Shown one piece after another: positions 341 through 39,566 of a stretch of DNA of 39,566 nucleotides (the first letter of the stretch is position 1; every line of letters starts with the position of its first letter). Below the pieces are notes generated by a model. It was not told the origin of the DNA. It worked only from the letters and a program-made list of their open reading frames with translations, and did not search any database. Made by a program: the position numbers and the translations under genes. Origin of the DNA: a virus; IMG/VR virus record IMGVR_UViG_3300027969_000200, positions 1-39,566 of that record. The stretch is one strand, 5' to 3'.

Positions 341-358
341 GTGTAAGAGGTCTTACAC
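341..358. promoter_or_regulatory. 18-bp palindrome, copy 1 of 5
   Basis: GTGTAAGAGGTCTTACAC: two perfect 8-bp arms around a GG centre. It overlaps the stop codon of the 122-aa gene (its GTG TAA forms the first six bases on the minus strand) and lies 88 bp upstream of the 84-aa gene start. It could be a protein operator or an intercistronic RNA hairpin. Confidence 0.75.
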
Positions 359-11490: not shown

Positions 11491-12320
11491 TGGCTAGTTT
11501 AAGTATTCCAAACTCATTTACAAACAACACGGTAGCCAGTGCTACTGAGGTTAACGCAAACTTTACATCTGTAAAAAGTTTTGCCGAGTCTGCTGTTGTT
11601 CAAGTTGATGGTTCTGTTCAGGCTCCTACTGTTGCTATTGCAAACTTGGCTGTCACTACAGCAAAGATTGCTGATCTGAATGTTACTACGGCTAAGATTG
11701 CTGATGCTTCTATTACTGTTGGCAAACTTGCTTCTGGTGTTCAAATGTCTGGGCCTACTGGCGCAACAGGTGCTACTGGCCCTACTGGTCCTACTGGTCC
11801 TGCTGGTCCTACTGGTCCTACTGGTCCACAAGGTGCTACTGGCGCAACTGGTGCAACGGGCCCTGCTGGTCCAATTACGGACTCTTTAACAATTTCTCAA
11901 GGTACTGGTAGTGGTATTGGTGTTCATGTCGTGCGTGGTTTGTATCAAGCGAATTATGACGCATACCGAACAACCAATGGTGCAGGCGGTATTAACTTTG
12001 CTGTTGATTATACAGGAAGGGTTTTTCACTCTGGATTGACAGCAATATCTGACAGATACAAAAAACAGAATATTGAAATTGCAGACAAAGCAAGCCTTGT
12101 ACATGCCATCAACAATCTTGTTCCAAAGACTTTCAACTGGATTGACAACCCAGAAGAAAACCAAATTGGTTTTATAGCTCAAGAAGTGCAGGAAGTTATG
12201 CCTATTTCAATTAATGAACATAATGGCGTTCTGGGAATTGACTACAACGTACTAGTGACAGCATTGGTTGCTAAGTGCCAAGACCTGGAAGCACGACTGG
12301 CAGCGTTAGAAGCTAAATAA
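11490..12320 (+). CDS. Tail fibre with collagen-like repeats and C-terminal S74 chaperone
   Basis: 276 residues. Trimeric-looking N-terminus with heptad pairs ([20 protein letters not shown]), then about 13 Gly-X-Y triplets ([12 protein letters not shown]) around residues 88-130, a short globular part, and a C-terminal intramolecular chaperone domain of peptidase S74 type. The S74 domain shows [40 protein letters not shown] and a final coiled coil ([17 protein letters not shown]). In the family this domain trimerises the fibre and cuts itself off at the Ser-Asp site (SDR). Probable host-recognition fibre. Confidence 0.9.
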
Positions 12321-12703
12321 TGGCTACAGAAACACCAAGGAACAATCCACCAATACAAGGATGGACCGCACCGCTGCTAGAACAGTTGCGTTCTGCAGAC
12401 GCACGCACCCTGCAGCATGTTTTCACATCATTAAAAGATTACCTAGGTGGCGTACAACAAACCATCAGCTCAAACTATTATGATCTAAATATCGGGTCTG
12501 TATCTGCGGGAACAGCTGGCGCATCTATCACAGGAACATTCCCAAGTCAAACATTAAATCTAACGTTGCCTACGGGTCCTACTGGACCAACAGGTCCTAC
12601 AGGTCCTGCTGGTTCTTCTGGCTTTTCTTCTTTAAATCTTGATGGTGGACACCCAGATTCTATCTATGGTGGAACACCTCTTATTGATGCGGGGTATGCA
12701 TAA
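12320..12703 (+). CDS. Short collagen-like tail protein (127 aa)
   Basis: N-terminal helix ([20 protein letters not shown]) and [17 protein letters not shown], followed by the module [15 protein letters not shown] that leads into four to five Gly-X-Y triplets (near residues 89-101), and a C-terminal tail with [20 protein letters not shown]. This C-terminal DGG...SIYGG pattern is seen in many marine and freshwater phage tail proteins. Probably links the nozzle to the big fibre. TAATG stop-start overlaps on both sides. Confidence 0.8.
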
Positions 12704-15700: not shown

Positions 15701-15963
15701 TTCTGTGCTCGTTTAACTCTCTTATTGCCAGACCTAACAACACTGCTCATGCTTATGTTGAGTTTCAGGTAGATGGTGTAAGAAAATCAGTCAGAACTCA
15801 CACTATGTATGACGTAGGTGGAAACTACACTGCTTTAAACAACACGGCTATTGTGTATTGTCCAGCAAATAGTTACGTTACTTGTAATTTATGGACAATA
15901 GGTGGTGCCTTTGCTTACGCAGACTATTACGGTTCTGGCTTAACATTTAGATATTTAGGATAG
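12703..15963 (+). CDS. Large modular tail fibre / adhesin with collagen, lectin-like, YadA-like and C1q-like parts
   Basis: 1086 residues. Order: N-terminal tail-attachment domain as in major-tropism-determinant proteins ([20 protein letters not shown], 6-25); collagen triplets 53-127; fibre module ending LNFTIPRG (128-164); collagen 165-213; globular 214-334; collagen 335-436; an Lcl/DUF1566-like C-type-lectin-fold domain 480-655 ([27 protein letters not shown]); YadA-head-like repeats 800-915 ([27 protein letters not shown]); a C1q/TNF-like beta domain 985-1086. Collagen plus Lcl is the layout of the Legionella collagen-like adhesin. Main receptor-binding candidate. Confidence 0.9.
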
Positions 15964-21700: not shown

Positions 21701-24700
21701 CGAAGAAGCAATCAAAGACCTAATGGGTTATTATGATAATGTTTCTGGTGGAAAAACTATTGATGGTGCTGCTGGTTATAGTCCTTGGTCTGGAGATAAA
21801 GGACTAGATGTTACTCCAGAGTTTAAACCAGGAGAAAATGTTGTTGACTCTATGGCGGTTAGGGATTTCTCGCAGTCTACTGGTGCAAGACCTCGTGGCA
21901 GTAATGTTGTTACATACAATGATTTGATGAATGAAATAGACAGATTTTCTGCTTTAGCTAAAGAAGCTTTTGGTGCTGACGAGTTCTTTGCTACTGGTTC
22001 TGGTGTTGGTCGAAAGACCTATTCTGCAAAGTCGCTTCTTGATGTTGACGCTAAACTGAGTGCTGCTCGTGCCAAGGTTAAACAACTTAGAGCAGCAAAG
22101 GCTTCTGGTACAGAATCTCTGTCTGCTGCTCGTGAACTTGACGATGCACTTAATACTATTAAAGAAATCACCAGTGGTGGTTCTTTAACAAAGCCTGAAT
22201 GGTTTCAAAGTGTCGCACATACAAGCGAGGAACTTGGTCGTGCTTTGTTTGATTATCATATTGTTTCTGATCTTGGAAAACGTTGGAACACTGTAAGCGA
22301 GATATTTTCTACGTTTGGTATTGCCCCTAGTGAAAGAGTGTTCACTCGTATTAGTAAGAATGTTTCACAAAAGTTTATTGACATCATTGATAGCAACTTG
22401 ACTTCTACACGTAATGGTGTTTTGAATCTTGAAAAGTTTGAAAGAGCTGTTTCCGACATTGTTAACAACCCAGATCTTTCCGTGTCTGCGGGTCGTGTTT
22501 TCCAGGACCAATGGGATAAACTTAGTTCTGCTGAACGTGAAACAATTCAAGTTGCTTTAGGAAACAAGTCTGTAGCAAGTGGAGACGCTTACACTTTGCG
22601 CATGGAACTAAAAGCCATTAAGGGTAGGGCACGTAAGGCTGGAGCAACTCGTGCAGAGATAACTAAACTAGAAAATGATTTCTATAAAGAAAAAGTAGAT
22701 CCATGGTACACACAGGCTTTCCCTGAAGGAAGAAACTACAAGAAAGACAAGACTGCCGCTCTTAAAGAACTTGCACCTGTTCAAAGAAAGGGAGCCAAGT
22801 CTACGTACATGACTCCGTTCGCTGAAGAAGCTGATGCTGCTATTGTTAAATCCTTTTTTGAAAAGCATTTGGGTGCTTCAACTATTAAAGGAAGAAGCGC
22901 CACTCCTGTCGGGTATGTTGGCGAGTCTGGTAGTGGATCGATGGTTAAAGTTGTTGGTGGAGAAAATACTTTACAAACAAAGATTAAAGCGTTAAAAGAA
23001 TCCAAGGCTCGTTATGGTCAAATGTTGGATGAAGATTTGGATATGGAAACTTTCCTTCGTGATCCAGGTGCCCCACAAACTCGTCCTAGTATGAAGGTGC
23101 GTATAATGCAGCACACTTCAGAGCGCTGGCAAGCAGCGGTTAAGGAAGCGCAGACGGAAGCAGACAACTTTGCTATTCGTACTCGTGATGCTGTGTCTGC
23201 TAGAGAATCTGCTACTGTTCTTCAAACAGAAGCTGATTTGTTAGCTAAGGGTCAGGCTGTTCCTGCAAACTTCTTGGCTAAGGTTAAAGCTGTTGAACCC
23301 AAGATTAGAGCTATTGAATCTGCAGACAATGTAGTTGCCACTGCCCAGTCAAAATTAGATGACGTTACTGCAAAACTTACAGAAGTTCAAGACTCTATTG
23401 CTGCAAAACAAGAAGCGTGGGTTTCTTCTGGTAAGAAAGGCAAGCGTCCTTTAACTAATACAGAGTCTACACGTCTTGAGCGTTTAACTCCTGCGGTAAA
23501 GTCTGCTCAGAAACAACTTGATACAGCGCAGAAAGCAAGAGCCAATGTTCCTGCGTTGACCCCTAATGAATCTAAGTTTGTTGATTTGGTTAGGGCTGAG
23601 CCAACAACAACTGTGAAGCCAGCCAATCCTTTAACTGGTCAGGCTGCACGTCCTGGTAAACCTGCTGCTCCTTATGCTGAGCAGGCTAAAAAGATTATTG
23701 ACGCATACAACAAGAGGGCTAGTAGCGTCATGACTGCTAAAGCCAAGGGTGATGAAAGACTTGTACAAGTAATGCATGATGTTGCTGCTTACGATCTTTC
23801 TACTTTTACTGATGGTTTCAAAACCATTGATGGAGAGTATGCCGCATTTGATAATGGTACTAAGGTTGTTTTCACTCCTGAAGAAGCAGAGTCTTTGTAT
23901 GTTGGTGGTTCAGTAAGAGCTTCCGTAACTGCAGAGAATGTTAATGATTCTATTCGTGAAATATTGCAAGAGAAGAAAATTCTTGAACAGCAATACAAAG
24001 CAGCTGGTCAAGAATTTGATAAGGTTCGTCGTCGTATGCCAAGCGGTAAACCTGTATCTAGATTTGCTACGGCTGTACGTGCTGTTGATGGTGATATCTA
24101 TAGAGAAGCATTTGTAAAGTTTAACAATGAAATTGATAGAATCAATGCAAGACTTGCTGGGCTAAATGCTGACCTAGTGCCACTTGAGATATCTAAAAAA
24201 GCATTGAACCCAAAGGTTCAAGCTTCTGCTTTAAAAAAGATTAGCATTTTGGTTAATGGTTCTAAACGTTCTGGTGCAGTGTTTGATGAAATTGGTGTTG
24301 GTCGCTGGATTGACAACACACATCCTACCTTGGTGGATGTTGCACGTCGTGATGGCCTTAAAGAGATGGATGAACTTACTGCTTTGGGTGTTAGTTCTCG
24401 CAGTACTCCAAAGTCAGTGTCTGAGCGTTTAGATAAAGGATATAAAGTTGGTGGACGTGATCTTGAAATGCGTAGAGGCAACTTAGACAGGGCTTTTAAA
24501 GCAACTCCAGAGTATAAGCATCTTCAGGAACTTGCTGAGATGGAGAATGATGTTGTTGTTGCTTTGCACAAAAATACCAGGGCTTCTGCTGAGTCAATGA
24601 AAAACTATGCTGATGAACTTGCTAAAGAACTTGAAATTGCTAGAGGTGCTTTATCTGGACCTACTAATGTTGCTAGACTTGAACAAGAAATTCTTGCTGA

Positions 24701-26858
24701 TGCACAGGCTGCTAGTGACAGTTTGAAAGCACTTAGAGGTGCTGGACCTGTTGATGCTAGTGGTGTTCCGTTGGAGTTGCCAACGTCACCTGCTGCTGTT
24801 GACGAGTTTGGTCAGGCTGTTATTTCTCAGTCTGCTCCTGGTGGTACTTTTGTAGAGCCTGGCACTACGCCTAATACTAGGTTGTCTGCTGCTCAGGCTG
24901 TTCAGGCTGAAAACAGATACAACATTGGTTTCGCAAAGATTCAAGCTGATGACGCTAAGGAAGCTCGTCTTTTGTGGACTGAGAAGCGTGTTGATCCTGC
25001 TACTGGTCGTAGGACGTTGCCATCTTTAAGAGATGAAACTATGAAAACAGTTAAGACTGCTTTAGAGAATAAGCGCACGCAGAGGGCTGCTGTTGAGGAT
25101 ATTATTAAAGCAGTTAGTGGTGCGGCTGAAGAAGTGCGTATTAAGATTGAAGTAACTTCTGGTGGTGTTGACCAGTTTATGCAAGCATTGAACGATGGTC
25201 GTCAGTTGGCTGCTTCTTTGCAGCAACAACTTGATGAAGTTAACATGCTGGTGGCTTCAATGCCAGCCAAAGATACTATGGATGTATTTAAGTCCATGTC
25301 TACGGCTAAGGGTGGACGTAAGGTTACTGCTGCTCAGCAGGCTGCAGCAATTGAATCTTACAACAAATGGTTGAAAGATAACAAGCGTGTATTTGAAATG
25401 CTTTCTGAATCACCTGACGATCCTGTCAACAAGGCTTGGGCTGCTGCGGCTATGGCTGATTCGCAGTTGATTGATTTGGAATTGACCCATGCTGGTGAGT
25501 TGCTTGCCATTGCAGGTGCTAGTGCACCTGAATGGACAACTAGAGTGTTTGAACCGTTCTCTAAAGAATGGAAAAAGGCTGCTAAAGAGATGGGCTTATA
25601 CAAAGATATGAAGCGCATAGACAAAAAGGGATTCCCTAGTCTTGTTGGTGATAGTGAAGCAATTGAACTTTTAAATAACGTTGGGCGACTAAATCAACTT
25701 GGTGTTGTTAGTGACCTTGGTAAGTTTATGAGTGGATACACTCAGTTCTTTAAGGCGTATGCTACTCTTAGTCCTGGTTTCCATTTGCGTAACGAGATAA
25801 GCAACGTGTTTTCTATGTTCGCTGCTGGTGCGGATGTAAAGAACATGTATGACGGGTTCAAGTTGTGGCGTATGGCTGACACTCATTTTTCTGGTGGTGG
25901 AACTGTTGATTCGTTTATTGCAACCTTACCAGATGCTCAAAAAGAAATTGCACGAAATAGTCTTGGTGTAATGCTTGGCATGGGTGGCGGCAGAACACAA
26001 GATGCACTTAGTGGTTTCATGGCTAGAGGTAACGCTAGAATTAACTCTAACGCTGCTCTTAACTATTCAAAGAAAGTTGGTGGCAAGCTTGAAGGCTCTG
26101 CTCACTTTATGTTGGCTTACGATTCTTTTGTAAAGGGTTTTGACCCTAGCCAGTCGTTCAACAGAACAAAGCGTTACTTGTTTGACTATTCAGAGAAGTC
26201 TTTACTGGATGAATCAATGCAAGACATTGTTCCATTCTGGACGTGGATGAGTCGCAACTTGCCTTTGCAGATTACTAACCGCTGGGCAAACCCCAAGCCT
26301 TATCTGATGTATCAGCGTATGGTTTCAAACTCCCAGCAGGGTAAGGACATGTCTGGCATGCCTAGTTATGTGCGTAATGCTATTAGTCTTGGTGGAGATC
26401 AGTTCTTAAATCCTGATTTGCCGTTCAGCAGAGTGAACGAACAAATTGACTCACTGACTGACCCTAAAAAGCTTCTTGGATATTTGAACCCTGGTATTCG
26501 TGTTCCTTTGGAGACAATGTTTAATCAAGACTTATACACGGGTAAGCCTATGTCTGACAAGCAGGAGAAACTTTCTGGTGCTACTCTTTTGTTAGCTCCG
26601 TTCTTGCAAGCCACTGGTCAACTTAGTTATAACCAAGCAGGGGACCCTGTTGCCCCATCAAAGTTTGTTCGTGCTTTGACACAGATAATACCACCTATTG
26701 GACAGGCACAGCGTGTCGGAGACAAAGGTATTAACACTTACGTAGGTATACCAGTTCAGACTGTTACACAGAAACAGAAAGATGGTGTGGCTTTTGGTAA
26801 GCTTGAACAACTCAGAAAACTATCCGAAAAACAACGCAACATTCAGAAAGCGGAGTAA
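18759..26858 (+). CDS. Giant virion-associated protein (2699 aa), probably ejected with the DNA
   Basis: One uninterrupted frame filling a fifth of the genome. The N-terminal third has hydrophobic, Gly-rich helices (GVLKPLSLLALPGRTVISGL; LDRAIGFAGDVVLDPITYVT), a motif I recall from very large podoviral internal proteins. The central part is mostly charged helix and coiled coil (DNVVATAQSKLDDVTAKLTE; RLERLTPAVKSAQKQLDTAQ). The last 400 residues are aromatic and conserved-looking (FKAYATLSPGFHLRNEISNV; IVPFWTWMSRNLPLQITNRW). Placement before the endolysin matches ejection proteins. Enzymatic motifs were not recognised; polyvalent-protein domains cannot be excluded by eye. Confidence 0.82.
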   Translation: MANPYNDQRYAMARAMREQKQTQPGFTPLNKTTSATGVAYGRQASNMMSTNFDLKSAIDAIGQGKTSKSPQGGVLGSVLGNSVVQGVLKPLSLLALPGRTVISGLREFGDAVDGNNKTKASFGDFKKQATDVSFGFGTAFNIDTGSKWLDRAIGFAGDVVLDPITYVTFGGGKFAGYAGKLDLAKAVLAHNGDEALAASVARFGRAAIKDQNLLTDLGANNHGLYMLGKRIKVGKLNAASGERMGLRIPGSGAIGAFGDNAMAKMRMMGSETKMGEFVRKWTLPNEHLVARTALLKGATASGKPLSTDTTTALIGYFSATPAMKQFMGQLAQSERQVLAKTLEAEAGAGLEGYAKEVYKYLENPELLATATPEIQAAVQKWGPDFFDSYEARVGAAMKEVDPTSPGFDGVTNYFPRIQSDAAIAYRANPNSPHAADLNSIYSRDPMAGGKNFKTRTMTEGDKWFGHKLTIDDLKSTDRLNQLAKDGGFIGDFFETDIRIVAPRYVDEFVKESGILFKHKHLADAGFWERAAAIDMSGEFVDEIMLESIKKSAGSIAGDLNALYKQSSKAYLTFNDALVAHQAKLSGEIKELLGDTGAVGSREILLDTEAALNDILTGGLTISADQLGLAANALDKSKKTLVDLFGYAYTKGGKLVLKDTGREATESTYLLHGILGHLDSIQDDFLDLERQATVLGKDLTGIELKSIADKTDAAHKLALERLKASEENVKIVLEFGNQLESVLEGVISGQTYARDITDILGIMGERGVLTDTAVSSIVDKTAAGVKNAEKADRVRQTALRNLINKEGGLFQRLTKNSKLSKTSVTKMNDNVFNNNLPKVFTGELSSSEVRSMSIYTLLNDERIYGENVPEFLVAVRDKLLKNLQEADEAEVIAAEIAKDSGAGARKNSGSIWKTQTKPKIAEAKLLRENIDQMDEFVNLMRNTDLLRNLGDTEISWGLFEAHAKSKPWLSQFIPDNDVAYLNEEAIKDLMGYYDNVSGGKTIDGAAGYSPWSGDKGLDVTPEFKPGENVVDSMAVRDFSQSTGARPRGSNVVTYNDLMNEIDRFSALAKEAFGADEFFATGSGVGRKTYSAKSLLDVDAKLSAARAKVKQLRAAKASGTESLSAARELDDALNTIKEITSGGSLTKPEWFQSVAHTSEELGRALFDYHIVSDLGKRWNTVSEIFSTFGIAPSERVFTRISKNVSQKFIDIIDSNLTSTRNGVLNLEKFERAVSDIVNNPDLSVSAGRVFQDQWDKLSSAERETIQVALGNKSVASGDAYTLRMELKAIKGRARKAGATRAEITKLENDFYKEKVDPWYTQAFPEGRNYKKDKTAALKELAPVQRKGAKSTYMTPFAEEADAAIVKSFFEKHLGASTIKGRSATPVGYVGESGSGSMVKVVGGENTLQTKIKALKESKARYGQMLDEDLDMETFLRDPGAPQTRPSMKVRIMQHTSERWQAAVKEAQTEADNFAIRTRDAVSARESATVLQTEADLLAKGQAVPANFLAKVKAVEPKIRAIESADNVVATAQSKLDDVTAKLTEVQDSIAAKQEAWVSSGKKGKRPLTNTESTRLERLTPAVKSAQKQLDTAQKARANVPALTPNESKFVDLVRAEPTTTVKPANPLTGQAARPGKPAAPYAEQAKKIIDAYNKRASSVMTAKAKGDERLVQVMHDVAAYDLSTFTDGFKTIDGEYAAFDNGTKVVFTPEEAESLYVGGSVRASVTAENVNDSIREILQEKKILEQQYKAAGQEFDKVRRRMPSGKPVSRFATAVRAVDGDIYREAFVKFNNEIDRINARLAGLNADLVPLEISKKALNPKVQASALKKISILVNGSKRSGAVFDEIGVGRWIDNTHPTLVDVARRDGLKEMDELTALGVSSRSTPKSVSERLDKGYKVGGRDLEMRRGNLDRAFKATPEYKHLQELAEMENDVVVALHKNTRASAESMKNYADELAKELEIARGALSGPTNVARLEQEILADAQAASDSLKALRGAGPVDASGVPLELPTSPAAVDEFGQAVISQSAPGGTFVEPGTTPNTRLSAAQAVQAENRYNIGFAKIQADDAKEARLLWTEKRVDPATGRRTLPSLRDETMKTVKTALENKRTQRAAVEDIIKAVSGAAEEVRIKIEVTSGGVDQFMQALNDGRQLAASLQQQLDEVNMLVASMPAKDTMDVFKSMSTAKGGRKVTAAQQAAAIESYNKWLKDNKRVFEMLSESPDDPVNKAWAAAAMADSQLIDLELTHAGELLAIAGASAPEWTTRVFEPFSKEWKKAAKEMGLYKDMKRIDKKGFPSLVGDSEAIELLNNVGRLNQLGVVSDLGKFMSGYTQFFKAYATLSPGFHLRNEISNVFSMFAAGADVKNMYDGFKLWRMADTHFSGGGTVDSFIATLPDAQKEIARNSLGVMLGMGGGRTQDALSGFMARGNARINSNAALNYSKKVGGKLEGSAHFMLAYDSFVKGFDPSQSFNRTKRYLFDYSEKSLLDESMQDIVPFWTWMSRNLPLQITNRWANPKPYLMYQRMVSNSQQGKDMSGMPSYVRNAISLGGDQFLNPDLPFSRVNEQIDSLTDPKKLLGYLNPGIRVPLETMFNQDLYTGKPMSDKQEKLSGATLLLAPFLQATGQLSYNQAGDPVAPSKFVRALTQIIPPIGQAQRVGDKGINTYVGIPVQTVTQKQKDGVAFGKLEQLRKLSEKQRNIQKAE

Positions 26859-27873: not shown

Positions 27874-28061
27874 TCTACTTCGGCTTGTTCCTTGCGCATT
27901 GAATCTTCAATCTTGGTTGCTGCTTCAACAATTGATTCTACTGCTGGTACTCCGAACCTATCTTCAAGGTAGTGGATGATTGCAAAGATGTTTGCAACAA
28001 TCCAGTACACATCTACTGGTTCTTTCTGCTCTGTATTAGCTATGTCCTGGTGTTCTGTCAT
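27870..28061 (-). CDS. Hypothetical 63-aa acidic helical protein
   Basis: Start ATG at 28061 with AGGAGA Shine-Dalgarno placed inside the end of the sigma-like gene. Sequence EPVDVYWIVANIFAIIHYLE then DRFGVPAVESIVEAATKIED; mostly helical. Short helical proteins with this aromatic-hydrophobic core occur next to replication genes in actinophages; the role is unknown. Ends in an ATGA overlap with the 59-aa gene. Confidence 0.7.
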   Translation of the reverse strand: MTEHQDIANTEQKEPVDVYWIVANIFAIIHYLEDRFGVPAVESIVEAATKIEDSMRKEQAEVE

Positions 28062-28968
28062 AATCTTCTCCTAACTGAAGGTTGAATGTTTCGTCAATCA
28101 ACATTAGGGCTACTACGCAATATCCTACGATATCGAGAAGTGTGTCAAATACTGATTCGTTTTTTGCATGTTTGTTTTTAAGGTTTGCATACCGTTCTAC
28201 TTTGTCTGACAGGCGTACGGTGATGCCGTACAGCCCAAACTTGTTTATATTTTCATGACCGTAATCATACTGTTTGCTACATAGTGTTTCAAAGACTGTT
28301 GCCAAGTCCCATGACTCAATGCTTTTAAGTTCGTTAATTGCGGATACAGCCATCTTTTCAAAGATTACTTGTGTTGTGTGTAGCGATAGGTGTTCTGATT
28401 TTTCTGCTACAACTAGTGATGCTATCCATGTTCGCATTGATGGGATGTCTGCTCCTTGGAGGGAGTTTACTTTTTGTCTTGCAACTAGGTACTCGTCTGG
28501 CTCAAGATGTGTCAGGTATGACAACCACTGCATGGCTGACTGGTCCCATGTGGTTGCTACTCGTACTGATTTTCTGATTGTTGTGTCGGTGCTCATTGTT
28601 TCCTTGAGTTTCTTGAATGCTTGGTTTCGTAAACGCCAAACATGTGTTTTTGTTATTGATAGTTCGTCTGCTATGGACTGGAGTGAACGGCCCTCGTTCA
28701 TGAGGGCGTTCACAATCCATTGTTCCCTGGGGGGTAGTTGCTCTACATGTTCCATCACTGCGTCACGTAGTTCCATTAAACCCTCTTGTGGTTCGTATGG
28801 TTCTTCGTGGGGCATGGTTTCCATTAACGCTTGGTATTCGTTTTCTGGAAGCCTGTAACTAGTAGACCTTATTTGGCTACGGTAGTTTTCAGTGTCGTGA
28901 TTATTGGGGCTGTCTGTGTACTGCATAAGCGGCGGCGTCGTATTTCGTTGGTTCAGATGGGAAGTCAT
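28036..28968 (-). CDS. Sigma-70 region 4-like HTH fused to an Nmad1 (DUF1599-like) domain
   Basis: 310 residues from the longest start; ATG at 28926 (codon 15) is an alternative, as neither start has a good Shine-Dalgarno. Residues 77-124 match sigma-70 region 4: LPPREQWIVNALMNEGRSLQ, SIADELSITKTHVWRLRNQA. No region 2 is visible, so it is not a complete sigma factor. Residues 222-292 match nucleotide-modification-associated domain 1: YDYGHENINKFGLYGITVRL, SDKVERYANLKNKHA, ESVFDTLLDIVGYCVVALML. The middle is helical and unassigned. The fusion suggests a DNA-binding regulator with a nucleotide-pool link. Confidence 0.78.
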   Translation of the reverse strand: MTSHLNQRNTTPPLMQYTDSPNNHDTENYRSQIRSTSYRLPENEYQALMETMPHEEPYEPQEGLMELRDAVMEHVEQLPPREQWIVNALMNEGRSLQSIADELSITKTHVWRLRNQAFKKLKETMSTDTTIRKSVRVATTWDQSAMQWLSYLTHLEPDEYLVARQKVNSLQGADIPSMRTWIASLVVAEKSEHLSLHTTQVIFEKMAVSAINELKSIESWDLATVFETLCSKQYDYGHENINKFGLYGITVRLSDKVERYANLKNKHAKNESVFDTLLDIVGYCVVALMLIDETFNLQLGEDYDRTPGHS

Positions 28969-32945: not shown

Positions 32946-33400
32946 TAAAGTTCTCCTTTGTGTTGTAGTCGTTTTCTTAGATGAGTTACATACGATTTGT
33001 TTATCGTGTATCCGAACTCGTCAATGATTGCTTGACGCAGTGGTGTTGGCATCATGCCTTGCCTAATGCCTCTGACAAGATACGCATATACATCCGCTGG
33101 TAAGAAGCGTGATGGTGTTATGGTATGTTCGATCATTGGCGCAATGTCCATCTTGCCTCGCAGGTTCTCTGCTTCTTGATGTTTCCTAAACAATCTAATT
33201 GGTGGTGTCGCTTTGTTTACCAGTTCACACCAGTGTGGTATTGTGCCATCCCATTTGCCAAAGTAAGCGAGTGCTTCACCGTTTAACATTTCGTGTGGTA
33301 TCGCTAAATACTTTGGGGATACTGGGTCTGTGATTTTTACGTCACATAAGCATAAGGGGTCGTGCGATATAACATCGCAACCCTCGGGTGATAAGGTCAT
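32945..33400 (-). CDS. Putative DNA-binding regulator (151 aa)
   Basis: AGGAGA precedes the ATG at 33400. The C-terminus has the shape of a winged or simple helix-turn-helix: PTPLRQAIIDEFGYTINKSY followed by VTHLRKRLQHKGEL. The N-terminus carries Cys residues (GCDVISHDPLCLCDV) that could bind metal, and the middle is hydrophilic. First gene after the control gap 33401-33504, a typical site for an early regulator. Assignment is weak and by pattern only. Confidence 0.55.
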   Translation of the reverse strand: MTLSPEGCDVISHDPLCLCDVKITDPVSPKYLAIPHEMLNGEALAYFGKWDGTIPHWCELVNKATPPIRLFRKHQEAENLRGKMDIAPMIEHTITPSRFLPADVYAYLVRGIRQGMMPTPLRQAIIDEFGYTINKSYVTHLRKRLQHKGEL

Positions 33401-33504
33401 GTTCTCCTGTCATGTATTTGTTATCATGTCTTGTGGTGCGCCACCCCTAAGGTGGCTCACCTGCGTGGTCGGGTACTTCCCCCCTCCGTTGGTTCCCCCC
33501 AGGC
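33401..33504. promoter_or_regulatory. Short control gap with hairpin and G6 tracts
   Basis: GCCACC (33440-33445) and GGTGGC (33451-33456) form a stem around CCTAA. Further right, two C6 runs near 33480-33500 read as G6 tracts on the leftward strand. The layout (hairpin plus paired G-tracts in a leader) resembles 1829-1875. A promoter for the DNA-metabolism operon may lie here; no clear -35/-10 pair was found. Confidence 0.35.
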
Positions 33505-33654
33505 TCACAGCCTAGCATTAGGCTTGGGCTTCTTGTCAACGGGCTCCATCTCAACGGCTTTCTTTCCTCGCTCATGCCAGTGAGTTGGTGGCTTGAATAA
33601 TGCTAGGTCTGTACCTATCCAGTGGGTGCATTTAGGGCACTGCCAGTAGTTCAT
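33505..33654 (-). CDS. 49-aa zinc-ribbon-like protein
   Basis: ATG at 33654 chosen for AAAGGAGG about 9 bp upstream. The product MNYWQCPKCTHWIGTDLALF continues KPPTHWHERGKKAVEMEPVD and ends KKPKPNARL. CPKC plus HWH provides a probable C2H2-like zinc site; the tail is basic. A longer frame to 33783 exists but its extra part is antisense-like to the Rpf gene end. Function unknown. Confidence 0.68.
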   Translation of the reverse strand: MNYWQCPKCTHWIGTDLALFKPPTHWHERGKKAVEMEPVDKKPKPNARL

Positions 33655-33689
33655 GGCTTGATGCCTCCTTTCGTGGCTTAGAACGCTTC

Positions 33690-34262
33690 TCAGCGTCTCT
33701 GACGGGACTTGGCGACCACCTTGTCCCACGCCGTCCAAGGCGCTGGGACTGGTGGTTTGAGATAGTCGTTGTTTTTGATGCATCCCCAGCCGTTAAATCC
33801 AACTGGCTGTTGAAAGTAACCGTTAGGAGCCAACCATCCATGCAACGCAATCCTGTTCGCAATAGTGATTTGTTCTAGTCGTGTTGCGAGCCATTGCTTG
33901 GGTGCGAACTCTTGTCCACCATACCCCCGCCATGTCTGAAGAAAAATACCGAGACCACCAGCGAATTTGCCACGGTCTTTCCAATTGCTTTTAGTTTCGC
34001 ATTGAGCGACCTTGTCCCAGTATTTGTTGTGGGGTCGTTTGAGTGTAGCCAGCCACGATATATCCCACTTACTACTGTTTCGTGTTTGTACTTCTTGGGT
34101 GTGGACTTGTGGTGCTTGTGTGGTAGATGTGTTAAAAACATATACAAATTCTTTCTTTATTGTTGTTGTGGGTGAAGCCGATACTGGCTTGTTATCCGAT
34201 AGCCATAAGGTTATCGTGATGGTTAATACTATTAATAATTTAAGTATTGTAAATTTGTTCAT
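33690..34262 (-). CDS. Secreted Rpf-domain muralytic protein
   Basis: 190 residues with AAGGAGA before the ATG. N-terminal Sec signal or anchor (hydrophobic 5-20, then SDNKPVSAS at a likely cleavage site). A Ser/Thr/Gln linker leads to the Rpf/lysozyme-like domain at 80-165: YWDKVAQCETKSNWKDRGKF (catalytic Glu89), AGGLGIFLQTWRGYGGQEFA, LEQITIANRIALHGW, with Cys88 and Cys161 placed for the Rpf disulfide. Rpf enzymes cleave the glycan backbone of actinobacterial walls. Unusually it lies in the DNA-metabolism arm rather than with the endolysin, so it may act early at the envelope. Confidence 0.87.
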   Translation of the reverse strand: MNKFTILKLLIVLTITITLWLSDNKPVSASPTTTIKKEFVYVFNTSTTQAPQVHTQEVQTRNSSKWDISWLATLKRPHNKYWDKVAQCETKSNWKDRGKFAGGLGIFLQTWRGYGGQEFAPKQWLATRLEQITIANRIALHGWLAPNGYFQQPVGFNGWGCIKNNDYLKPPVPAPWTAWDKVVAKSRQRR

Positions 34263-34473
34263 GGTTGGTCTCCTTCATAAACTGAATTAAGGCAAGTTCC
34301 AGTTTATGTTTTGATGTCATTAGTAAAGCGTACTCCTCTGATACGCCGTCTTGCCATTTAGTGGATGATACCCTGCCAACTTTCTTGGCTACTTGGTCAC
34401 AGCCGATACTCAGGGACTTGATTGTCGCTCGCAGTTCGTCAATGGTTAGTTGTGTGTTTATGGTTAGTTCCAT
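34240..34473 (-). CDS. Hypothetical 77-aa helical protein
   Basis: GGTAGG lies upstream of the ATG at 34473. Sequence MELTINTQLTIDELRATIKS then LSIGCDQVAKKVGRVSSTKW and a Leu-rich helix (YALLMTSKHKLELALIQFMK). It is probably all-helical and may dimerise. Overlaps the Rpf gene start by 23 bp. No family recognised. Confidence 0.65.
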   Translation of the reverse strand: MELTINTQLTIDELRATIKSLSIGCDQVAKKVGRVSSTKWQDGVSEEYALLMTSKHKLELALIQFMKETNHEQIYNT

Positions 34474-34491
34474 TTCGTTACCTACCGTGTC

Positions 34492-35070
34492 CTAAAACGG
34501 TTCCAGGTGGGTTCTAGTGTCATTCACAGACGCTGGTAGCGTATACAGATTGTCGTCCATACGACCAGACAGGTGAGAACACACAGCCGAACGCATGCTT
34601 GACCACAGCAGTTTCTGTGAGCGTTCCTTGTACTCATCGCCTAGTTCCTGCCACATTCTCCTGAATGTTGTTTCATCCATCTGAGGTAACGACCATACGG
34701 AGTCACGGGTTTGTTGCATCAACTCTTTGTGTGTCTTAACAATCTCCCAATCCTCGTCAAACACATTAACATCTCTAGCCATGTGGTTGTACATAGACAA
34801 TGCGTTGTTTATTGTTAATGGATCTGTGTTTACATAACTGATAGCACCAAGTCCCTCTGCTACTGTTGTCTGTATAGTGCGTACACGACCGCTAGTAAAT
34901 AGGTCCTCGTTTGCTTCACTAAACTTCTCACCCTCCAATCGTACGCCGTTACGAACAATGCCTAGTGCGTGTCGTTCTATCTCCCAATCTGTAATGTCGT
35001 TGTAGTTATTGTTTGAGTTGTTGGCGTCAATAGTGAATTCTATTGTCATGCTGATTTGGTATGATTTCAT
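34492..35070 (-). CDS. Hypothetical 192-aa protein
   Basis: Start ATG at 35070 in an ATGA overlap with the upstream gene, with GGAG nearby and a palindrome copy 16 bp upstream. MKSYQISMTIEFTIDANNSN is a beta-strand start; the rest is mixed, including TFRRMWQELGDEYKERSQKL and SMRSAVCSHLSGRMDDNLYT. No family recognised. The palindrome placement suggests shared regulation with the amidoligase operon. Confidence 0.7.
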   Translation of the reverse strand: MKSYQISMTIEFTIDANNSNNNYNDITDWEIERHALGIVRNGVRLEGEKFSEANEDLFTSGRVRTIQTTVAEGLGAISYVNTDPLTINNALSMYNHMARDVNVFDEDWEIVKTHKELMQQTRDSVWSLPQMDETTFRRMWQELGDEYKERSQKLLWSSMRSAVCSHLSGRMDDNLYTLPASVNDTRTHLEPF

Positions 35071-35393
35071 TTGTTTCTCCTGTTGGTGTAAGATGTCTTA
35101 CACAGTCTTGATTTTGTTTTTTGTTTAGGGTACCACGAGCAGTAATACACGCGGTACATTTGGTCTGTGTCAATGACGAGGTTGTTGCCCTCGTCATAAA
35201 CAAGTGGGTATGCTGTGACGCTGAGGCGGTTATCATCTACCCAAAGATTAACATCTTGTCTATTGAGTGGGTTGATATCCTCCATGTTGTATGTGTCCCA
35301 CACATCATCGTAGTGGCTGTATTTATTCTTGCTCATCCAATGCTCAGCCATTTGTTTGGCGTAAGCATAGATGTCTGTATGTTTATTTCTCAT
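35067..35393 (-). CDS. Hypothetical 108-aa protein
   Basis: Good GGAGGG Shine-Dalgarno. MRNKHTDIYAYAKQMAEHWM, rich in Tyr/Asp/Asn, then strands LSVTAYPLVYDEGNNLVIDT and YRVYYCSWYPKQKTK. The last coding bases contain palindrome copy 3 (35086-35103). It is the gene immediately downstream of the amidotransferase (9-bp gap), so probably in the same transcript. No family recognised. Confidence 0.7.
   Translation of the reverse strand: MRNKHTDIYAYAKQMAEHWMSKNKYSHYDDVWDTYNMEDINPLNRQDVNLWVDDNRLSVTAYPLVYDEGNNLVIDTDQMYRVYYCSWYPKQKTKSRLCKTSYTNRRNK
35086..35103. promoter_or_regulatory. 18-bp palindrome, copy 3 of 5 (centre TG)
   Basis: GTGTAAGATGTCTTACAC: both 8-bp arms are identical to the other copies and only the central pair differs (TG instead of GG). 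It lies inside the last codons of the 108-aa gene and 16 bp upstream of the 192-aa gene. Preserving the arms inside a coding sequence argues for selection. Confidence 0.68.
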
Positions 35394-35402
35394 TGTTCCC
35401 TC

Positions 35403-36377
35403 CTAGAAGAACCAATCGTTGGTACCGTCGTAATTACCCTTGGTGTGTGATGGCACATACAGTTGGGATTGGCGATAGTCGTCAACAATGTCAGACTGTG
35501 CACCCATGCATCTACACAACATGCGTGGCTCTGAACAGAACCAACAGCAGTCGCATTGTGAACACAGGTCAACATTGTTTACATTGGATTCGTCTATGTA
35601 CTCAATGTGGTCACAACTAGCGCAACGCCATAGTTCACCCCACACCTCGTCACCGTTCTCGTCAATGTATGTACAGTCCTCAACAAGAACAGATTGGTTG
35701 TCCCATATGTCGTTGTCATACATGGCGTACTTGGTTGTGTCAATAGTGTACCGTGAATCAGGTGGTGTCTTGCCAGTAGATGTCCAGCCAGTAGTGTACA
35801 TGCCGTGTCCTGAGTAACTGTAGCGGTCGTACTTGTAACTGTTGTTTGACCACCATACACCCTCAACCCAATGCCCGTCGTTCTCGTTGATGATGTAATA
35901 GTCCTCTTGAACATCAGGATTGGCAGACAAGAACACAAGTTTAGAACCATCAGCGAACTTGGATAGTTTCTTGCGTGTTTTCTTGCTGTTGAGTGTTGAA
36001 GCGCCACCCCAACTAGGGAATAATTCCTTAGCAAAGATGTGGGTATCACTCATACCGTTGCGAGCCGCAATCGGCAACATGCCGTTGTGTGCTACAACCG
36101 TGTTAGTGTCCTTGCCAACTTGGAATGGGTGACAGTTGTTGATGTTGGTACCGCCATGTGTCGTGATGCGGGAGTGAAACAACGCAGGACCCGAATGAAT
36201 TGCTCGTGTCTTGAGGAAGTTATCTAACACGGCATCAAAGTTGAGACCGCTACCTTTCACAATGTGTGTACCAGCATGAACAGCGTAACCAAACCCGTCA
36301 GGGTTGTTCTGTGAACCAACAGTTAATGAATCTACATCCGCTGTTGTGTACTCTTGCATGAATGTTAATAAACACAT
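35403..36377 (-). CDS. Class II glutamine amidotransferase with C-terminal cysteine-rich domain
   Basis: 324 residues. After removal of Met1, Cys2 would be the N-terminal nucleophile (MCLLTFMQEY). Other Ntn motifs: NPDGFGYA (25-32), FHSRITTHGG (67-76), NCHPF (81-85), VAHNGML (95-101), SDTHIFAKELF (110-120). These enzymes release ammonia from glutamine for a partner. The synthase part is absent; instead the C-terminus carries a Cys cluster (WRCASCDHIEY, LCSQCDCCWFC, MLCRCMG). The gene starts 5 bp after the amidoligase stop, with AAAGG before the ATG, so the two enzymes very probably work together. Confidence 0.9.
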   Translation of the reverse strand: MCLLTFMQEYTTADVDSLTVGSQNNPDGFGYAVHAGTHIVKGSGLNFDAVLDNFLKTRAIHSGPALFHSRITTHGGTNINNCHPFQVGKDTNTVVAHNGMLPIAARNGMSDTHIFAKELFPSWGGASTLNSKKTRKKLSKFADGSKLVFLSANPDVQEDYYIINENDGHWVEGVWWSNNSYKYDRYSYSGHGMYTTGWTSTGKTPPDSRYTIDTTKYAMYDNDIWDNQSVLVEDCTYIDENGDEVWGELWRCASCDHIEYIDESNVNNVDLCSQCDCCWFCSEPRMLCRCMGAQSDIVDDYRQSQLYVPSHTKGNYDGTNDWFF

Positions 36378-36382
36378 ATTTC

Positions 36383-37570
36383 TTATATGCCTTTCGTTGT
36401 GGCGTAAGCATCAAATGCTTCGTAACCGTTTTGTTTTGTCCATTGACGGAAACGATCCCAGTCATGGCTCTCTTGAATTTTGATGTTGTACATTTGACTG
36501 ATGCTGTACTCTGCTACTGCGTGTACTGCTTCTAGTCGTGCTTGAATAGTTTTGGGGTTGAGCGTACCCTTGAAGAAACGCAACTCTAATGTGTGGCGTG
36601 GCTGTAAGTTAAGCGCAACATATCTGTCGTTGTTGCACTGTCGCATGTTTCCAGCCTGTAAGCCCTTGGCGTAACGCAACATCTGCGTTGCTTCAAAGTC
36701 GTCCCATTGTGCGTATGTTGAACGACTACGACCAGCAAGTGTTTTCCATTGCTCGGTGTTGCGATAAAACATAGACATGAAACGATACAAAGATGACGAC
36801 CTGCCCTCAAAGAATCCCTTGTTGATGTGAACATGAAGCCCACAGGTTCTTGTAGTAGCAGAACGCATACCAATATCAGACAACTCACGCAGTCGTGCAA
36901 GAGGCAACACATTCTGTATGTACTCTTTCGTCATGGGATGAGATACAACCTCAAACCCATTGCTAAGAGAACCGTCATGCTTGAGATAACAAGAGTCACC
37001 AAAGATATCAGTAGCAAGTTCAGCACCCTCGTTGATGTCGCAACCGTCTGCTTCCATTTCTAACTCAAAACCAGTAACGCTGATGCGTCGTGGCTCTCGC
37101 ATGGTTGTAAACATTTTGATGTCCTTGGTTAGGACATCAGGACGCATACCATGAAAGATAGGGTCAGGACGAAATGAGTAGTCATGAATGAGTCGTGAAC
37201 TTTCTTGCTGTTCATCTTCACACGAACATTGCGGTCCGTTGTCAATGTGATAAACCTCATCACAGTATTCGCAACTGCTGTACTGGTCGTAACACGATTC
37301 GCATCGCATCTCGTCCCAGCCGATGTCCATCATGTCGCCACGCTCAACATACAACTGACAGTCCTGACAGTATGTGTAGTCATCGTCGCAATCTGAACAG
37401 AAGTATTTAGCGTTACCTGTTGCTAATGCTTCATGGATGTCTCGGCGTCGCCAGTATGAAGTGTTCTCGTCAAGACGAATAACTAATGCTTCAATTAGAT
37501 GCTCGTCTTGGCAGATACAGCACTCGGCTAGTAGGCTTGGTGGCTCTGTTGTTGTTTCTTGTGTTGTCAT
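36383..37570 (-). CDS. GCS-like amidoligase (Amidoligase_2 family) with N-terminal zinc-binding region
   Basis: 395 residues. Residues 17-117 hold about twelve cysteines as CxxC pairs (CCIC, CSDC, CQDC, CESC, CEYC, CSC), suggesting several zinc ribbons or a treble clef. The C-terminal domain has family motifs: GFELEMEADG (167-176, Mg/ATP-binding Glu169/171), KHDGSLS..FEVVSHP (197-212), CGLHVHIN (243-250), RYVALNL (316-322), TLELRFFKGTLNP (327-339). Amidoligases of this ATP-dependent glutamine-synthetase/GCS fold join carboxyls to amines. With the adjacent GATase a peptide or cell-wall amidation or ligation is likely; the substrate is unknown. CCCAGGAGGG precedes the start, and a palindrome lies 34 bp upstream. 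Confidence 0.9.
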   Translation of the reverse strand: MTTQETTTEPPSLLAECCICQDEHLIEALVIRLDENTSYWRRRDIHEALATGNAKYFCSDCDDDYTYCQDCQLYVERGDMMDIGWDEMRCESCYDQYSSCEYCDEVYHIDNGPQCSCEDEQQESSRLIHDYSFRPDPIFHGMRPDVLTKDIKMFTTMREPRRISVTGFELEMEADGCDINEGAELATDIFGDSCYLKHDGSLSNGFEVVSHPMTKEYIQNVLPLARLRELSDIGMRSATTRTCGLHVHINKGFFEGRSSSLYRFMSMFYRNTEQWKTLAGRSRSTYAQWDDFEATQMLRYAKGLQAGNMRQCNNDRYVALNLQPRHTLELRFFKGTLNPKTIQARLEAVHAVAEYSISQMYNIKIQESHDWDRFRQWTKQNGYEAFDAYATTKGI

Positions 37571-37603
37571 TGTACCCTCCTGGGTGTTGTGTTTTTATTT
37601 GTT

Positions 37604-37621
37604 GTGTAAGAGGTCTTACAC
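37604..37621. promoter_or_regulatory. 18-bp palindrome, copy 4 of 5, upstream of the amidoligase operon
   Basis: GTGTAAGAGGTCTTACAC, an exact copy, between the 86-aa gene stop (37659) and the amidoligase start (37570). It is the only copy with a clear gap on both sides, so it is the cleanest candidate for operator or leader hairpin control of the amidoligase-GATase pair. Confidence 0.75.
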
Positions 37622-37658
37622 GGTTGGTGGATATTCAAGGTAGTCAAATCGTCAATGA

Positions 37659-37919
37659 TTACTGGGGTTTGTGGTAGACATTTCCGTTTATGTCACACAG
37701 CCTCCTGTCAAAGATAGGTGAGATACGCCACGCCAAGCCGACATTGTTGTCACGCTCAAAGGAAAGCAAATCATCTTCCTCAACATAAGTTAGATGTTCA
37801 GTCTCCGTGTTGATTACTTGCCAACACTTAGGCTTGACACCTCCCTTGCGTGCTCGTTCCACACAACGAGCGAGGTCGTTGTCGTACTGCTTGCGTGATG
37901 AGGTATTCTGTGATTTCAT
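37659..37919 (-). CDS. Hypothetical 86-aa protein
   Basis: MKSQNTSSRKQYDNDLARCV, basic at first, then WQVINTETEHLTYVEEDDLL and NNVGLAWRISPIFDRRLCDI. AGGAGATAAATAA ahead of the ATG includes the stop of the upstream gene. Likely small folded protein; no family recognised. Confidence 0.68.
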   Translation of the reverse strand: MKSQNTSSRKQYDNDLARCVERARKGGVKPKCWQVINTETEHLTYVEEDDLLSFERDNNVGLAWRISPIFDRRLCDINGNVYHKPQ

Positions 37920-38327
37920 TTATTTATCTCCTAATTGTATTGTAAGCCAGTCGTCTCCAACTGTTTGTTGTAGCATCTCGTCAAACTCAAGTGACCAGAA
38001 TTGGTTTGTTGACAAATCAACACCCAAGCCATGCAGAACAGCATCATACATCATGACAATACTCTGCATAGTTTCCTCAAGTGTCTCTTTGCGTGACGCA
38101 TTGTAAACAACCGCTTGAGTAGTTGTCTCCTCAATGGTAGCAAAGAAATCAGTCCTACCATCATAATACGAAATATTAGTTTGCATTTCTTGCAAGTCAG
38201 CCAACGCTTTATGCGCCAAACTTTCCTGATGTCTAGTGTTACTCCACCTATCTCTAAGTGTGCAATACAAAGTAACCAACCTAGTTAGTTCCTCTGATAC
38301 TTGTTGTGTTAGTGCACCGTTGTCCAT
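37920..38327 (-). CDS. Hypothetical 135-aa helical protein
   Basis: Almost entirely helical: ALTQQVSEELTRLVTLYCTL, HQESLAHKALADLQEMQTNI, ETLEETMQSIVMMYDAVLHG, ending QLGDK. Its Shine-Dalgarno (AGGAGATAAATAA) is embedded in the last codons of the upstream gene, and an almost identical junction ends this gene. Function unknown; a dimeric coiled-coil-like protein is plausible. Confidence 0.7.
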   Translation of the reverse strand: MDNGALTQQVSEELTRLVTLYCTLRDRWSNTRHQESLAHKALADLQEMQTNISYYDGRTDFFATIEETTTQAVVYNASRKETLEETMQSIVMMYDAVLHGLGVDLSTNQFWSLEFDEMLQQTVGDDWLTIQLGDK

Positions 38328-38328
38328 T

Positions 38329-38577
38329 TTATTTATCTCCTAGATATGTGTTGTTGTATTTGCTAAGTAAGCGGTCAAACAATAAAGCATAAGCCTGCTC
38401 GTCATCTTGCTGTACCTCTAATGGTGTGTCAATAATCTTGTGCCAAGTACCCGTGTCATCATTCCATAATGGTTTGTTGTACGGAACATTCACAGAACTG
38501 TCTAGTGCGAAAGACACAACACCATCAGTGATTGTGGCTCGCACCATAAAGTAATGCTCGTAGTTATTAGTAGTCAT
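38329..38577 (-). CDS. Hypothetical 82-aa protein
   Basis: ATG at 38577 chosen for GAGGAGG about 6 bp upstream; a longer frame to 38646 overlaps the 65-aa gene. MTTNNYEHYFMVRATITDGV then SFALDSSVNVPYNKPLWNDD, beta-rich, with a helical end (AYALLFDRLLSKYNNTYLGD). Ends in the same LGDK-stop as the next gene. No family recognised. Confidence 0.68.
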   Translation of the reverse strand: MTTNNYEHYFMVRATITDGVVSFALDSSVNVPYNKPLWNDDTGTWHKIIDTPLEVQQDDEQAYALLFDRLLSKYNNTYLGDK

Positions 38578-38764
38578 TGTCGTCCTCCTCAAAGGTGAAT
38601 GTTTCATAGTCTGAAAGGAAGTCTCGCAGACGGATAGGTTGCTCATCTGAATAACGGTCGATGTCTAGTTTGTGTAAACATTGTTCAAGGAACCACATAG
38701 TGTGGTTTCGTAGTCGCATCTTTACAGGTGTAAAGAATAGAGTGAAGCGTAAACGCCTGTTCAT
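38567..38764 (-). CDS. Hypothetical 65-aa protein
   Basis: ATG at 38764 overlaps the stop of the 27-aa gene (ATGA). Sequence MNRRLRFTLFFTPVKMRLRN, then HTMWFLEQCLHKLDIDRYSD and an acidic tail (FLSDYETFTFEEDDNDY). Overlaps the 82-aa gene start by 11 bp. The coupling chain supports it as real; function unknown. Confidence 0.6.
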   Translation of the reverse strand: MNRRLRFTLFFTPVKMRLRNHTMWFLEQCLHKLDIDRYSDEQPIRLRDFLSDYETFTFEEDDNDY

Positions 38765-38844
38765 ATTGGTAGGATACTTTCTGTTAGGTGGAATATGATG
38801 TGTACGAATACACAGAAGGTAAAGTGTTGTACAAAGTGTTTCAT
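38761..38844 (-). CDS. 27-aa hydrophobic peptide gene
   Basis: ATG at 38844 has one of the best ribosome-binding sites in the window (GAAAGGAGGTCAAGTG) and forms a TGATG overlap with the upstream stop. The product is MKHFVQHFTFCVFVHIIFHL-TESILPI, largely hydrophobic, so possibly a membrane micro-protein, or a leader that couples translation of the 65-aa gene through ATGA. Confidence 0.5.
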   Translation of the reverse strand: MKHFVQHFTFCVFVHIIFHLTESILPI

Positions 38845-39107
38845 CACTTGACCTCCTTTCTCTTAGTTGGGTATGGCTTCCACTGTGACTTGTGATGACC
38901 GCTATCGCAACGATTACGGCAACAGAAGTCAATCTTCTTTGAACGCACAGGCTCAGACCAAGTGTACTTGTCATAAGACTCCCACAGGCTTGGTTCTTCC
39001 TGATACATATTGAGAACGCTGATGATGTGATTGTACTCACTATCAACATAGTCCGCAATGTCTGCGATACCTGTTTGCCACTCAGGTATTCCTTTTGTTA
39101 CTGACAT
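38844..39107 (-). CDS. Hypothetical 87-aa Cys/His protein
   Basis: AAAGGA upstream of ATG at 39107. MSVTKGIPEWQTGIADIADY, helical middle (EYNHIISVLNMYQEEPSLWE), then KIDFCCRNRCDSGHHKSQWK, a Cys-Cys..Cys..His-His cluster that resembles the end of small zinc-finger phage proteins. Preceded by a 107-bp gap with palindrome copy 5. Function unknown. Confidence 0.7.
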   Translation of the reverse strand: MSVTKGIPEWQTGIADIADYVDSEYNHIISVLNMYQEEPSLWESYDKYTWSEPVRSKKIDFCCRNRCDSGHHKSQWKPYPTKRKEVK

Positions 39108-39193
39108 ATTGCTATGTCCTTTCTACTATCTGACCTATCATCAGCAACCACCTAAGGTTGTACGCCTCACGGCGTTTCAAGGAATAAGATACT

Positions 39194-39211
39194 GTGTAAG
39201 AGGTCTTACAC
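39194..39211. promoter_or_regulatory. 18-bp palindrome, copy 5 of 5
   Basis: GTGTAAGAGGTCTTACAC, an exact copy, extending to 20 bp as TGTGTAAGAGGTCTTACACA. It begins 3 bp beyond the stop of the 43-aa gene (supplying a second in-frame TAA) and lies 87 bp upstream of the 87-aa gene. A second small hairpin (ACGCC/GGCGT) is found just downstream on the transcript. Confidence 0.75.
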
Positions 39212-39214
39212 AAA

Positions 39215-39346
39215 CTACTGAGCGTAGTCAGCAGTATCGTCAAACGATTCTGTGTCAGGCTCTGACTCGGTGATGACTGGCATCAACAAGTTAATCATTG
39301 CTTCATACTCTGCGAGTATGTTCTGCTCTACTTCTGTTGGCAACAT
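39215..39346 (-). CDS. 43-aa acidic mini-protein
   Basis: ATG at 39346 with AAGGAGAAAG just upstream, stop TAG at 39215. Product MLPTEVEQNILAEYEAMINL followed by LMPVITESEPDTESFDDTAD and YAQ, strongly acidic with an N-terminal amphipathic helix. Acidic mini-proteins in phage early regions often inhibit host enzymes, but that is only a suggestion here. It fills the space between the 84-aa gene and palindrome copy 5. Confidence 0.65.
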   Translation of the reverse strand: MLPTEVEQNILAEYEAMINLLMPVITESEPDTESFDDTADYAQ

Positions 39347-39400
39347 GGCTTTCTCCTTTCCTTGTAGATTTCCAATAAACCCATGCATACAAGTTGTGTA

Positions 39401-39566
39401 TTAATTTGCTTTAATCTCTTTAGCAAAAGCAACACACATATCATAATGAACAGCATCTGAAACACTGTCAGCGAAATCCCACCATTCACGATGTGCTTTC
39501 TTCATCATTCCCTTGTCTCCAAGTTCGTACGCACGCTGGCAAGCGACACCATGAGCCGTTGCCACC
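39401..39566 (-). CDS. C-terminal part of the 84-aa edge gene (second copy in the terminal repeat)
   Basis: Encodes residues 31-84 and the TAA stop (39403-39401) of the gene whose start is at 253. Open to the right edge. The T at 39439 changes residue 73 from Val (GTG, left copy) to Met (ATG). Confidence 0.8.
   Translation of the reverse strand, partial: VATAHGVACQRAYELGDKGMMKKAHREWWDFADSVSDAVHYDMCVAFAKEIKAN
39403..39566. repeat. Right copy of 164-bp terminal direct repeat
   Basis: Matches 1-164 base for base except position 39439. Merging the two ends gives a circle of 39402 bp. Confidence 0.93.

Follow-up and report, generated by a model that had tools for sequence, protein, structure and literature searches.

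What do two adjacent phage genes accomplish together, when one encodes a probable carboxylate ligase and the other a probable glutaminase, and each protein carries a cluster of cysteines outside its catalytic domain? The question arises from IMG/VR virus contig IMGVR_UViG_3300027969_000200, a stretch of 39,566 bases that was analysed whole and is referred to here as the window. A first-pass annotation, made from the letters of the sequence, described a phage amidoligase and a class II glutamine amidotransferase (GATase) as leftward neighbors separated by 5 bp. That gap, the strand, and the coordinates 35403-36377 and 36383-37570 are exact, and all the motifs quoted from the two proteins are found. 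The features discussed below are as follows, with the lines of evidence in parentheses.

36383-37570, minus strand: Amidoligase_2 family ligase, 395 aa, first gene of the pair (Pfam, PHROGs, AlphaFold, VIA)
36383-37096, minus strand: predicted GS/GCS-fold catalytic domain of the ligase, about residues 159-395 (invariant motifs, fold searches)
37196-37570, minus strand: N-terminal LIM-like, Cys-rich, putative zinc-type region of the ligase, 13 Cys, five CxxC (conservation in 28 sequences, LIM profile matches)
35403-36377, minus strand: class II GATase, 324 aa, second gene of the pair (Pfam, PHROGs, AlphaFold, Foldseek)
35484-35648, minus strand: C-terminal eight-Cys tail of the GATase, C-x2-C-x16-C-x2-C-x2-C-x2-C-x6-C-x-C (23 aligned tails)
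37604-37621, minus strand: leader hairpin GTGTAAG-ACCT-CTTACAC, 33 bases upstream of the ligase start codon (repeat count in the genome)

Two predicted enzymes with intact active sites

Profile searches agree with both family assignments. The ligase scores 37.3 bits against Amidoligase_2 (PF12224, curated cut-off 22) and matches phrog_16683 in PHROGs at 5e-33. The GATase scores 28.4 bits against Pfam model GATase_4 (PF13230, curated cut-off 23) and matches phrog_25883 at 1.5e-31. Alignments of 55 sequences show the ligase residues E169, E171, D199, S201, E207, H246, H248, R281, N321, E329 and R331 to be invariant; the motifs GxExE, DGS, CGLHVH and TxExRxF, of the Glu/His/Arg metal/ATP-binding type, are invariant or nearly so. 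Residues C2, R70, T73, H74, H83, N98, G99 and D111 of the GATase, also invariant among 55 sequences, correspond to the catalytic set known from class II amidotransferases. The C2 nucleophile sits right after the initiator Met, and R70, the N98-G99 oxyanion residues and the glutamine-binding residue D111 are all present. The catalytic modules are intact, as the first-pass annotation had supposed; neither the glutamates of the ligase nor Cys2 of the GATase has been lost.

Structure prediction gives a consistent picture. The AlphaFold model of the ligase has a mean pLDDT of 84.9, and Foldseek relates it to YbdK, glutamine synthetase, GmaS and PafA, all with E <1e-3. A VIA comparison returns Z 12.3 to the YbdK-like structure 1tt4 (rmsd 4.1, 222 residues aligned) and Z of about 11 to glutamine synthetases. 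By its model, the ligase has a GS/GCS-like carboxylate-amine ligase fold. The catalytic domain of the GATase is modeled with pLDDT of about 95; for its C-terminal tail the value is about 60-79, which is moderate confidence. The top Foldseek match of the GATase model is the GlmS glutaminase domain 1xff (E 1.4e-8), with PurF glutaminase domains also among the top matches, and the modeled fold is that of an Ntn-hydrolase glutaminase.

Against close relatives, dN/dS for each gene lies in the range 0.12-0.21, which indicates purifying selection on both. Profiles, conservation and dN/dS together rule out a chance or frame artefact for the two genes. PADLOC, searched for known anti-phage defence systems, returned no match for either protein.

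Pairing across phages and bacteria

Two viral-contig scans, one anchored on the amidoligase and the other on the GATase, were used to survey gene order; the best-scoring relatives were kept in each, and the two sets share contigs, so that their counts are not independent. At least 547 amidoligase relatives were confirmed in one viral-contig scan. Among the best-scoring 80 loci of the amidoligase-anchored scan, 78 have a GATase directly downstream on the same strand, with a gap of -60 to +36 bases, and the remaining two contigs end inside the ligase gene. The claim that the pair occurs together in related phages therefore holds for 78 of 78 testable amidoligase loci and, in the overlapping set of the best-scoring 80 GATase-anchored loci, for 80 of 80, where the ligase is directly upstream. 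Loci from Methylophilales phages show ligase then GATase in 16 of 17 cases, the contig ending in the last, and LUZ24-type Pseudomonas phages have the pair in five of five. The same order is seen in Mycobacterium phage Marvin (gp105/gp106) and in other public phage records.

The closest known systems differ from the window in several features. Marvin (Marvinvirus) shares both families, the order, the strand, the ligase N-terminal Cys region and the GATase eight-Cys tail, at identities of about 29% for the ligase and about 31% for the GATase, but its ligase has an extra C-terminal extension. In the Methylophilales (OM43) phages MEP401/MEP402, the two genes are adjacent, overlap and have the same order; unlike in the window, the ligase has a long N-terminal extension with two CxxC only and the GATase lacks the eight-Cys tail. 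In LUZ24, the amidoligase gp18 is likewise followed directly by the class II GATase gp19, but this ligase has no zinc region, and additional COOH-NH2 ligase, ATP-grasp and GGCT genes occur. None of these additional genes is found among the window ORFs searched (Pfam, PHROGs, ligase profile), so the window pair is filed with the two-gene core rather than with the LUZ24-type expanded cluster. In five related loci (L213, L218, L229, L242 and L298), the main ligase is immediately preceded by a second, smaller GS-fold ligase that has no zinc region, a layout that recalls LUZ24; a partial second GS-fold ligase occurs in L026. A search of the window with the ligase profile matched the known gene alone.

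The expanded neighborhoods bear on one alternative, a longer peptide-ligase or secondary-metabolite pathway in which the ligase would contribute a single step and would couple a carboxylate to an amino acid or an amine instead of ammonia. Such a pathway finds support in LUZ24, where the genes around the pair encode a further COOH-NH2 ligase, a RimK-like ATP-grasp enzyme and gamma-glutamyl cyclotransferase, and in the small second ligase of the five loci just described. The two genes nevertheless stand alone in the window and in most relatives, no ATP-grasp, GGCT or second ligase gene is present among the window ORFs searched, and a glutaminase partner that is always adjacent argues for ammonia. 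We consider a longer pathway unlikely.

Bacterial genome contigs yielded 83 ligase ORFs in 80 loci, nearly all from Oscillospiraceae or other Clostridia. A GATase is found in the same locus for 74 of the 83, nearly always directly downstream. The Oscillospiraceae module has in common with the window a ligase that bears a zinc region and a class II GATase gene after it, but the GATase in the examples examined is of GATase_6 type without the eight-Cys tail, and the module lies beside resolvase and relaxase genes with DUF960 upstream. Ruminococcus flavefaciens and related genomes (L095-L173, mostly Oscillospiraceae) carry a cassette of DUF960, amidoligase, GATase and serine resolvase, in several copies in some Oscillospiraceae genomes and often with relaxase genes nearby. 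An upstream DUF960 gene with a serine resolvase and relaxase nearby is as expected of mobile-element cargo. DUF960 neighbors the pair in Oscillospiraceae elements only, and comparison of gene neighborhoods across the viral and bacterial loci found no third partner gene linked to the pair across lineages. The constant order of two genes, with no third gene common to the lineages, fits two subunits of one reaction.

A family of C. difficile phage amidoligases is the exception to the pairing. Its nine loci (L012 and L256-L263) have neither a GATase neighbor nor a zinc/Cys region; the amidoligase fold works without a GATase in some settings, which counts against the reading of the pair as one enzyme. 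Phages whose terminase is at least about 80% identical to that of the window, and whose upstream sequence is long enough, have the ligase or the pair at a distance of about 4-6 kb; two phages with terminases about 64-65% identical have neither ligase nor GATase in 8-10 kb of upstream sequence.

Earlier publications describe phage pairs of this kind, in LUZ24-like phages (PMC3890496, PMC3517423) and in OM43 phages (PMC10580990). As cited in PMC10580990, Iyer and colleagues interpreted the phiEco32 genes as modifying the cell wall against superinfection, and the Marvin genome paper linked the Marvin pair to secondary metabolites. In our profile searches, the 20-45 kb region of phiEco32 gave no match to amidoligase or GATase. 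A partial search of the literature found no published description of the zinc regions in these pairs. Phage amidoligase/GATase pairs are already known; the present analysis adds their near-obligate synteny, the zinc domains and the occurrence as cargo of mobile elements.

Cysteine-rich regions of the two proteins

The clusters pointed out in the first-pass annotation are real, N-terminal and LIM-like in the ligase, C-terminal in the GATase, and they are conserved down to about 30% sequence identity, which means that they are not chance. Full-length ligases of the window's group have about 8-21 Cys preceding the catalytic domain. Eight ligand positions are near-invariant; across 28 sequences, little or no variation is seen at C58, C61, C68, C71, C90, C93, C100 and C103. 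LIM domains, as described by Pfam model PF00412, have eight zinc ligands in two modules of the type CxxC-x(16-23)-[HC]xxC with two residues between them. A profile built from the ligase region finds LIM-domain structures as its best matches (best E 1.6e-4), PF00412 itself is matched by three of the 28 members (best 9.4e-5) although not by the window member, and BFVD gives one related phage protein the name 'LIM domain containing protein'. The linker between the modules is longer than strict LIM spacing allows, and we describe the region as LIM-like.

The GATase tail has a different pattern and a narrower distribution. All eight Cys are invariant in 23 aligned tails, that of Marvin gp106 included, and near-invariant in 55 sequences; the GATase of L074 has lost one. 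The pattern C-x2-C-x(10-18)-C-x2-C-x2-C-x2-C-x(6-9)-C-x-C is kept by practically all full-length GATases of the actinophage group. The tail is restricted to this actinophage lineage and is absent from the Methylophilales and LUZ24 types. Both regions probably bind zinc.

It had been suggested that these regions bring the two enzymes together, an idea that is possible but unsupported. LUZ24-type ligases without an N-terminal Cys region and Oscillospiraceae GATases of another type are still paired, so the regions are not needed for pairing. A single duplicated Cys domain serving as a dimer interface was also considered and is not supported, since hhalign of the ligase region against the GATase region gives 21 columns at a probability of 39%.

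LIM and treble-clef domains typically bind proteins or peptides. This background makes protein modification a special case of the amidation proposed below: the LIM-like region would recruit a host or phage protein whose side-chain or C-terminal carboxyls are amidated during takeover. The region is kept in nearly all ligases of the window's group despite large divergence, the pair shares an operon with helicase, primase and exonuclease genes, and the Pup ligase PafA is among the fold relatives of the ligase. Set against this are the LUZ24-type ligases that have no zinc region, and no target has been found. We regard protein modification as possible but less likely than not. The same architecture weighs on the proposal that the genes merely boost host nitrogen or amino-acid metabolism, as was claimed for a planctomycete phage with similar genes (PMC10945688). 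An enzyme of general nitrogen metabolism would hardly be expected to combine a zinc-bearing ligase with an obligatory GATase of its own, nor to lack any link to nitrogen genes, and glutamine-hydrolysing enzymes consume ammonia rather than assimilate it; such a role appears highly improbable.

Genome setting and proposed reaction

The window contains a terminase and has the usual structural-module layout on its right side. The direct terminal repeat of about 164 bases at the contig ends indicates that it is probably a complete genome. A leftward, non-structural operon encodes a helicase, a primase, an exonuclease, RusA, an Rpf-like transglycosylase (PF06737) and the amidoligase/GATase pair, and we infer that the pair is expressed early. 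The transglycosylase (33690-34262, minus strand) is secreted-looking and lies in the replication operon, apart from the structural genes. WhiB genes occur near the pair in related phages. From the known distribution of the two families, the Rpf-like domain in the window and WhiB in relatives point to actinobacterial hosts, and the window virus probably infects actinobacteria of freshwater type. Megablast with positions 33000-39566 found no near-identical isolated phage. Elsewhere in the genome, three consecutive plus-strand genes (11490-15963) with long collagen-like G-x-T/G-x-P repeats probably encode tail-fibre proteins, and a single plus-strand ORF of 2699 aa (18759-26858), long for a 39.6-kb genome, possibly encodes a large internal virion or ejected protein.

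The ligase and several other leftward genes are preceded by the hairpin GTGTAAG-ACCT-CTTACAC, which occurs in five copies in the window (341-358, 827-844, 35086-35103, 37604-37621 and 39194-39211) against 0.16 expected. Nine relatives (L003-L006, L016, L020-L022 and L025) have hairpins of the same architecture, with a 7-9 bp stem and a tetraloop, in the homologous place. Within a genome the same stem recurs, whereas related genomes have a different stem that also pairs perfectly; the window has one copy, at about 38719-38736, with the stem typical of L003-L006. Most copies in the window's group and in L016 keep the loop ACCT in the same orientation, and for this reason an RNA element fits somewhat better than a symmetric protein-binding site. 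Rfam searches of the window at gathering thresholds found no families. The extended start-associated sequences (ESAS) of cluster K mycobacteriophages are a comparable phenomenon (PMC3203893).

At 28036-28968 on the minus strand lies a gene for a sigma-70 region 4 protein with a sub-threshold C-terminal match to DUF1599 (nucleotide modification associated domain 1); in relatives, the DUF1599-like part is encoded by itself, without sigma-70 region 4. This match is one of two points for the idea that the substrate amidated by the pair is a carboxylated base of phage DNA or of tRNA, the other being the involvement of class II GATases in base modification by other phages, in preQ0/archaeosine systems. 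The match falls under the curated cut-off and lies about 7 kb from the pair, however, and no thymidylate-synthase-like, base-oxidising or base-transferring enzyme is present among the window proteins searched, which makes a nucleic-acid substrate very unlikely.

The explanation we favor, at a probability of roughly 0.68, is that ligase and GATase form a glutamine-dependent amide synthase whose zinc region probably binds the substrate or a partner. The type of reaction follows from what is known of the families, together with the intact active sites and the constant pairing. Once its initiator Met had been removed, the GATase would have Cys2 as the N-terminal nucleophile and, as a class II Ntn hydrolase, would convert glutamine to glutamate and ammonia. 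The ammonia would pass from the GATase subunit to the ligase subunit. There the GS/GCS-fold amidoligase would spend ATP on activating a carboxylate, the intermediate probably being an acyl phosphate, and attack by ammonia would yield the amide. The LIM-like region of the ligase, together in the actinophage lineage with the eight-Cys tail of the GATase, would most likely bind the substrate or the partner subunit. It counts against this explanation that ligases of the GS/GCS fold are able to use other amines in place of ammonia.

Our leading guess for the substrate is the carboxyl of a peptide, a protein or a cell-wall peptide. Cell-wall amidation, a further special case, would act on the D-Glu or meso-DAP stem-peptide carboxyls of host peptidoglycan, with changed receptors or lytic sensitivity as the effect, so that other phages, for example, are excluded. 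This role has been proposed for phiEco32-type amidoligases, as reported in PMC10580990 and PMC11318856, which both cite Iyer 2009. MurT-GatD, of Gram-positive bacteria, is a real two-protein enzyme for glutamine-dependent wall amidation (PMC3267633, PMC5871853). It resembles the proposed system in its working, a glutaminase and an ATP-dependent ligase that make a primary amide (PMC3267633), but it is not a relative, being built from Mur ligase and class I GATase folds. The probable actinobacterial hosts, suggested by PF06737 in the same operon and by WhiB in relatives, would suit a wall substrate. However, comparison across lineages links the pair to no gene for a wall ligase, a transporter or any other wall function; phages of Gram-negatives, whose walls differ, carry the module too; and an enzyme acting on small lipid-linked substrates would not otherwise be expected to have a zinc region. 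Cell-wall amidation seems doubtful to us. A broader proposal, that zinc (LIM-like) domain-guided amidation of protein or peptide carboxyls is common to actinophages and Firmicutes mobile-element cargo and disarms or reprograms a host component, is speculative, and the odds are clearly against it.

Amidoligase/GATase pairs are very common, in unrelated phages and mobile elements alike, and the literature examined names no substrate for them. Near-obligate pairing and conserved zinc regions make the pair a concrete two-protein system, open to expression and to assay for glutamine-dependent amidation. Finding its target could uncover a strategy of host modification that mobile elements have in common.
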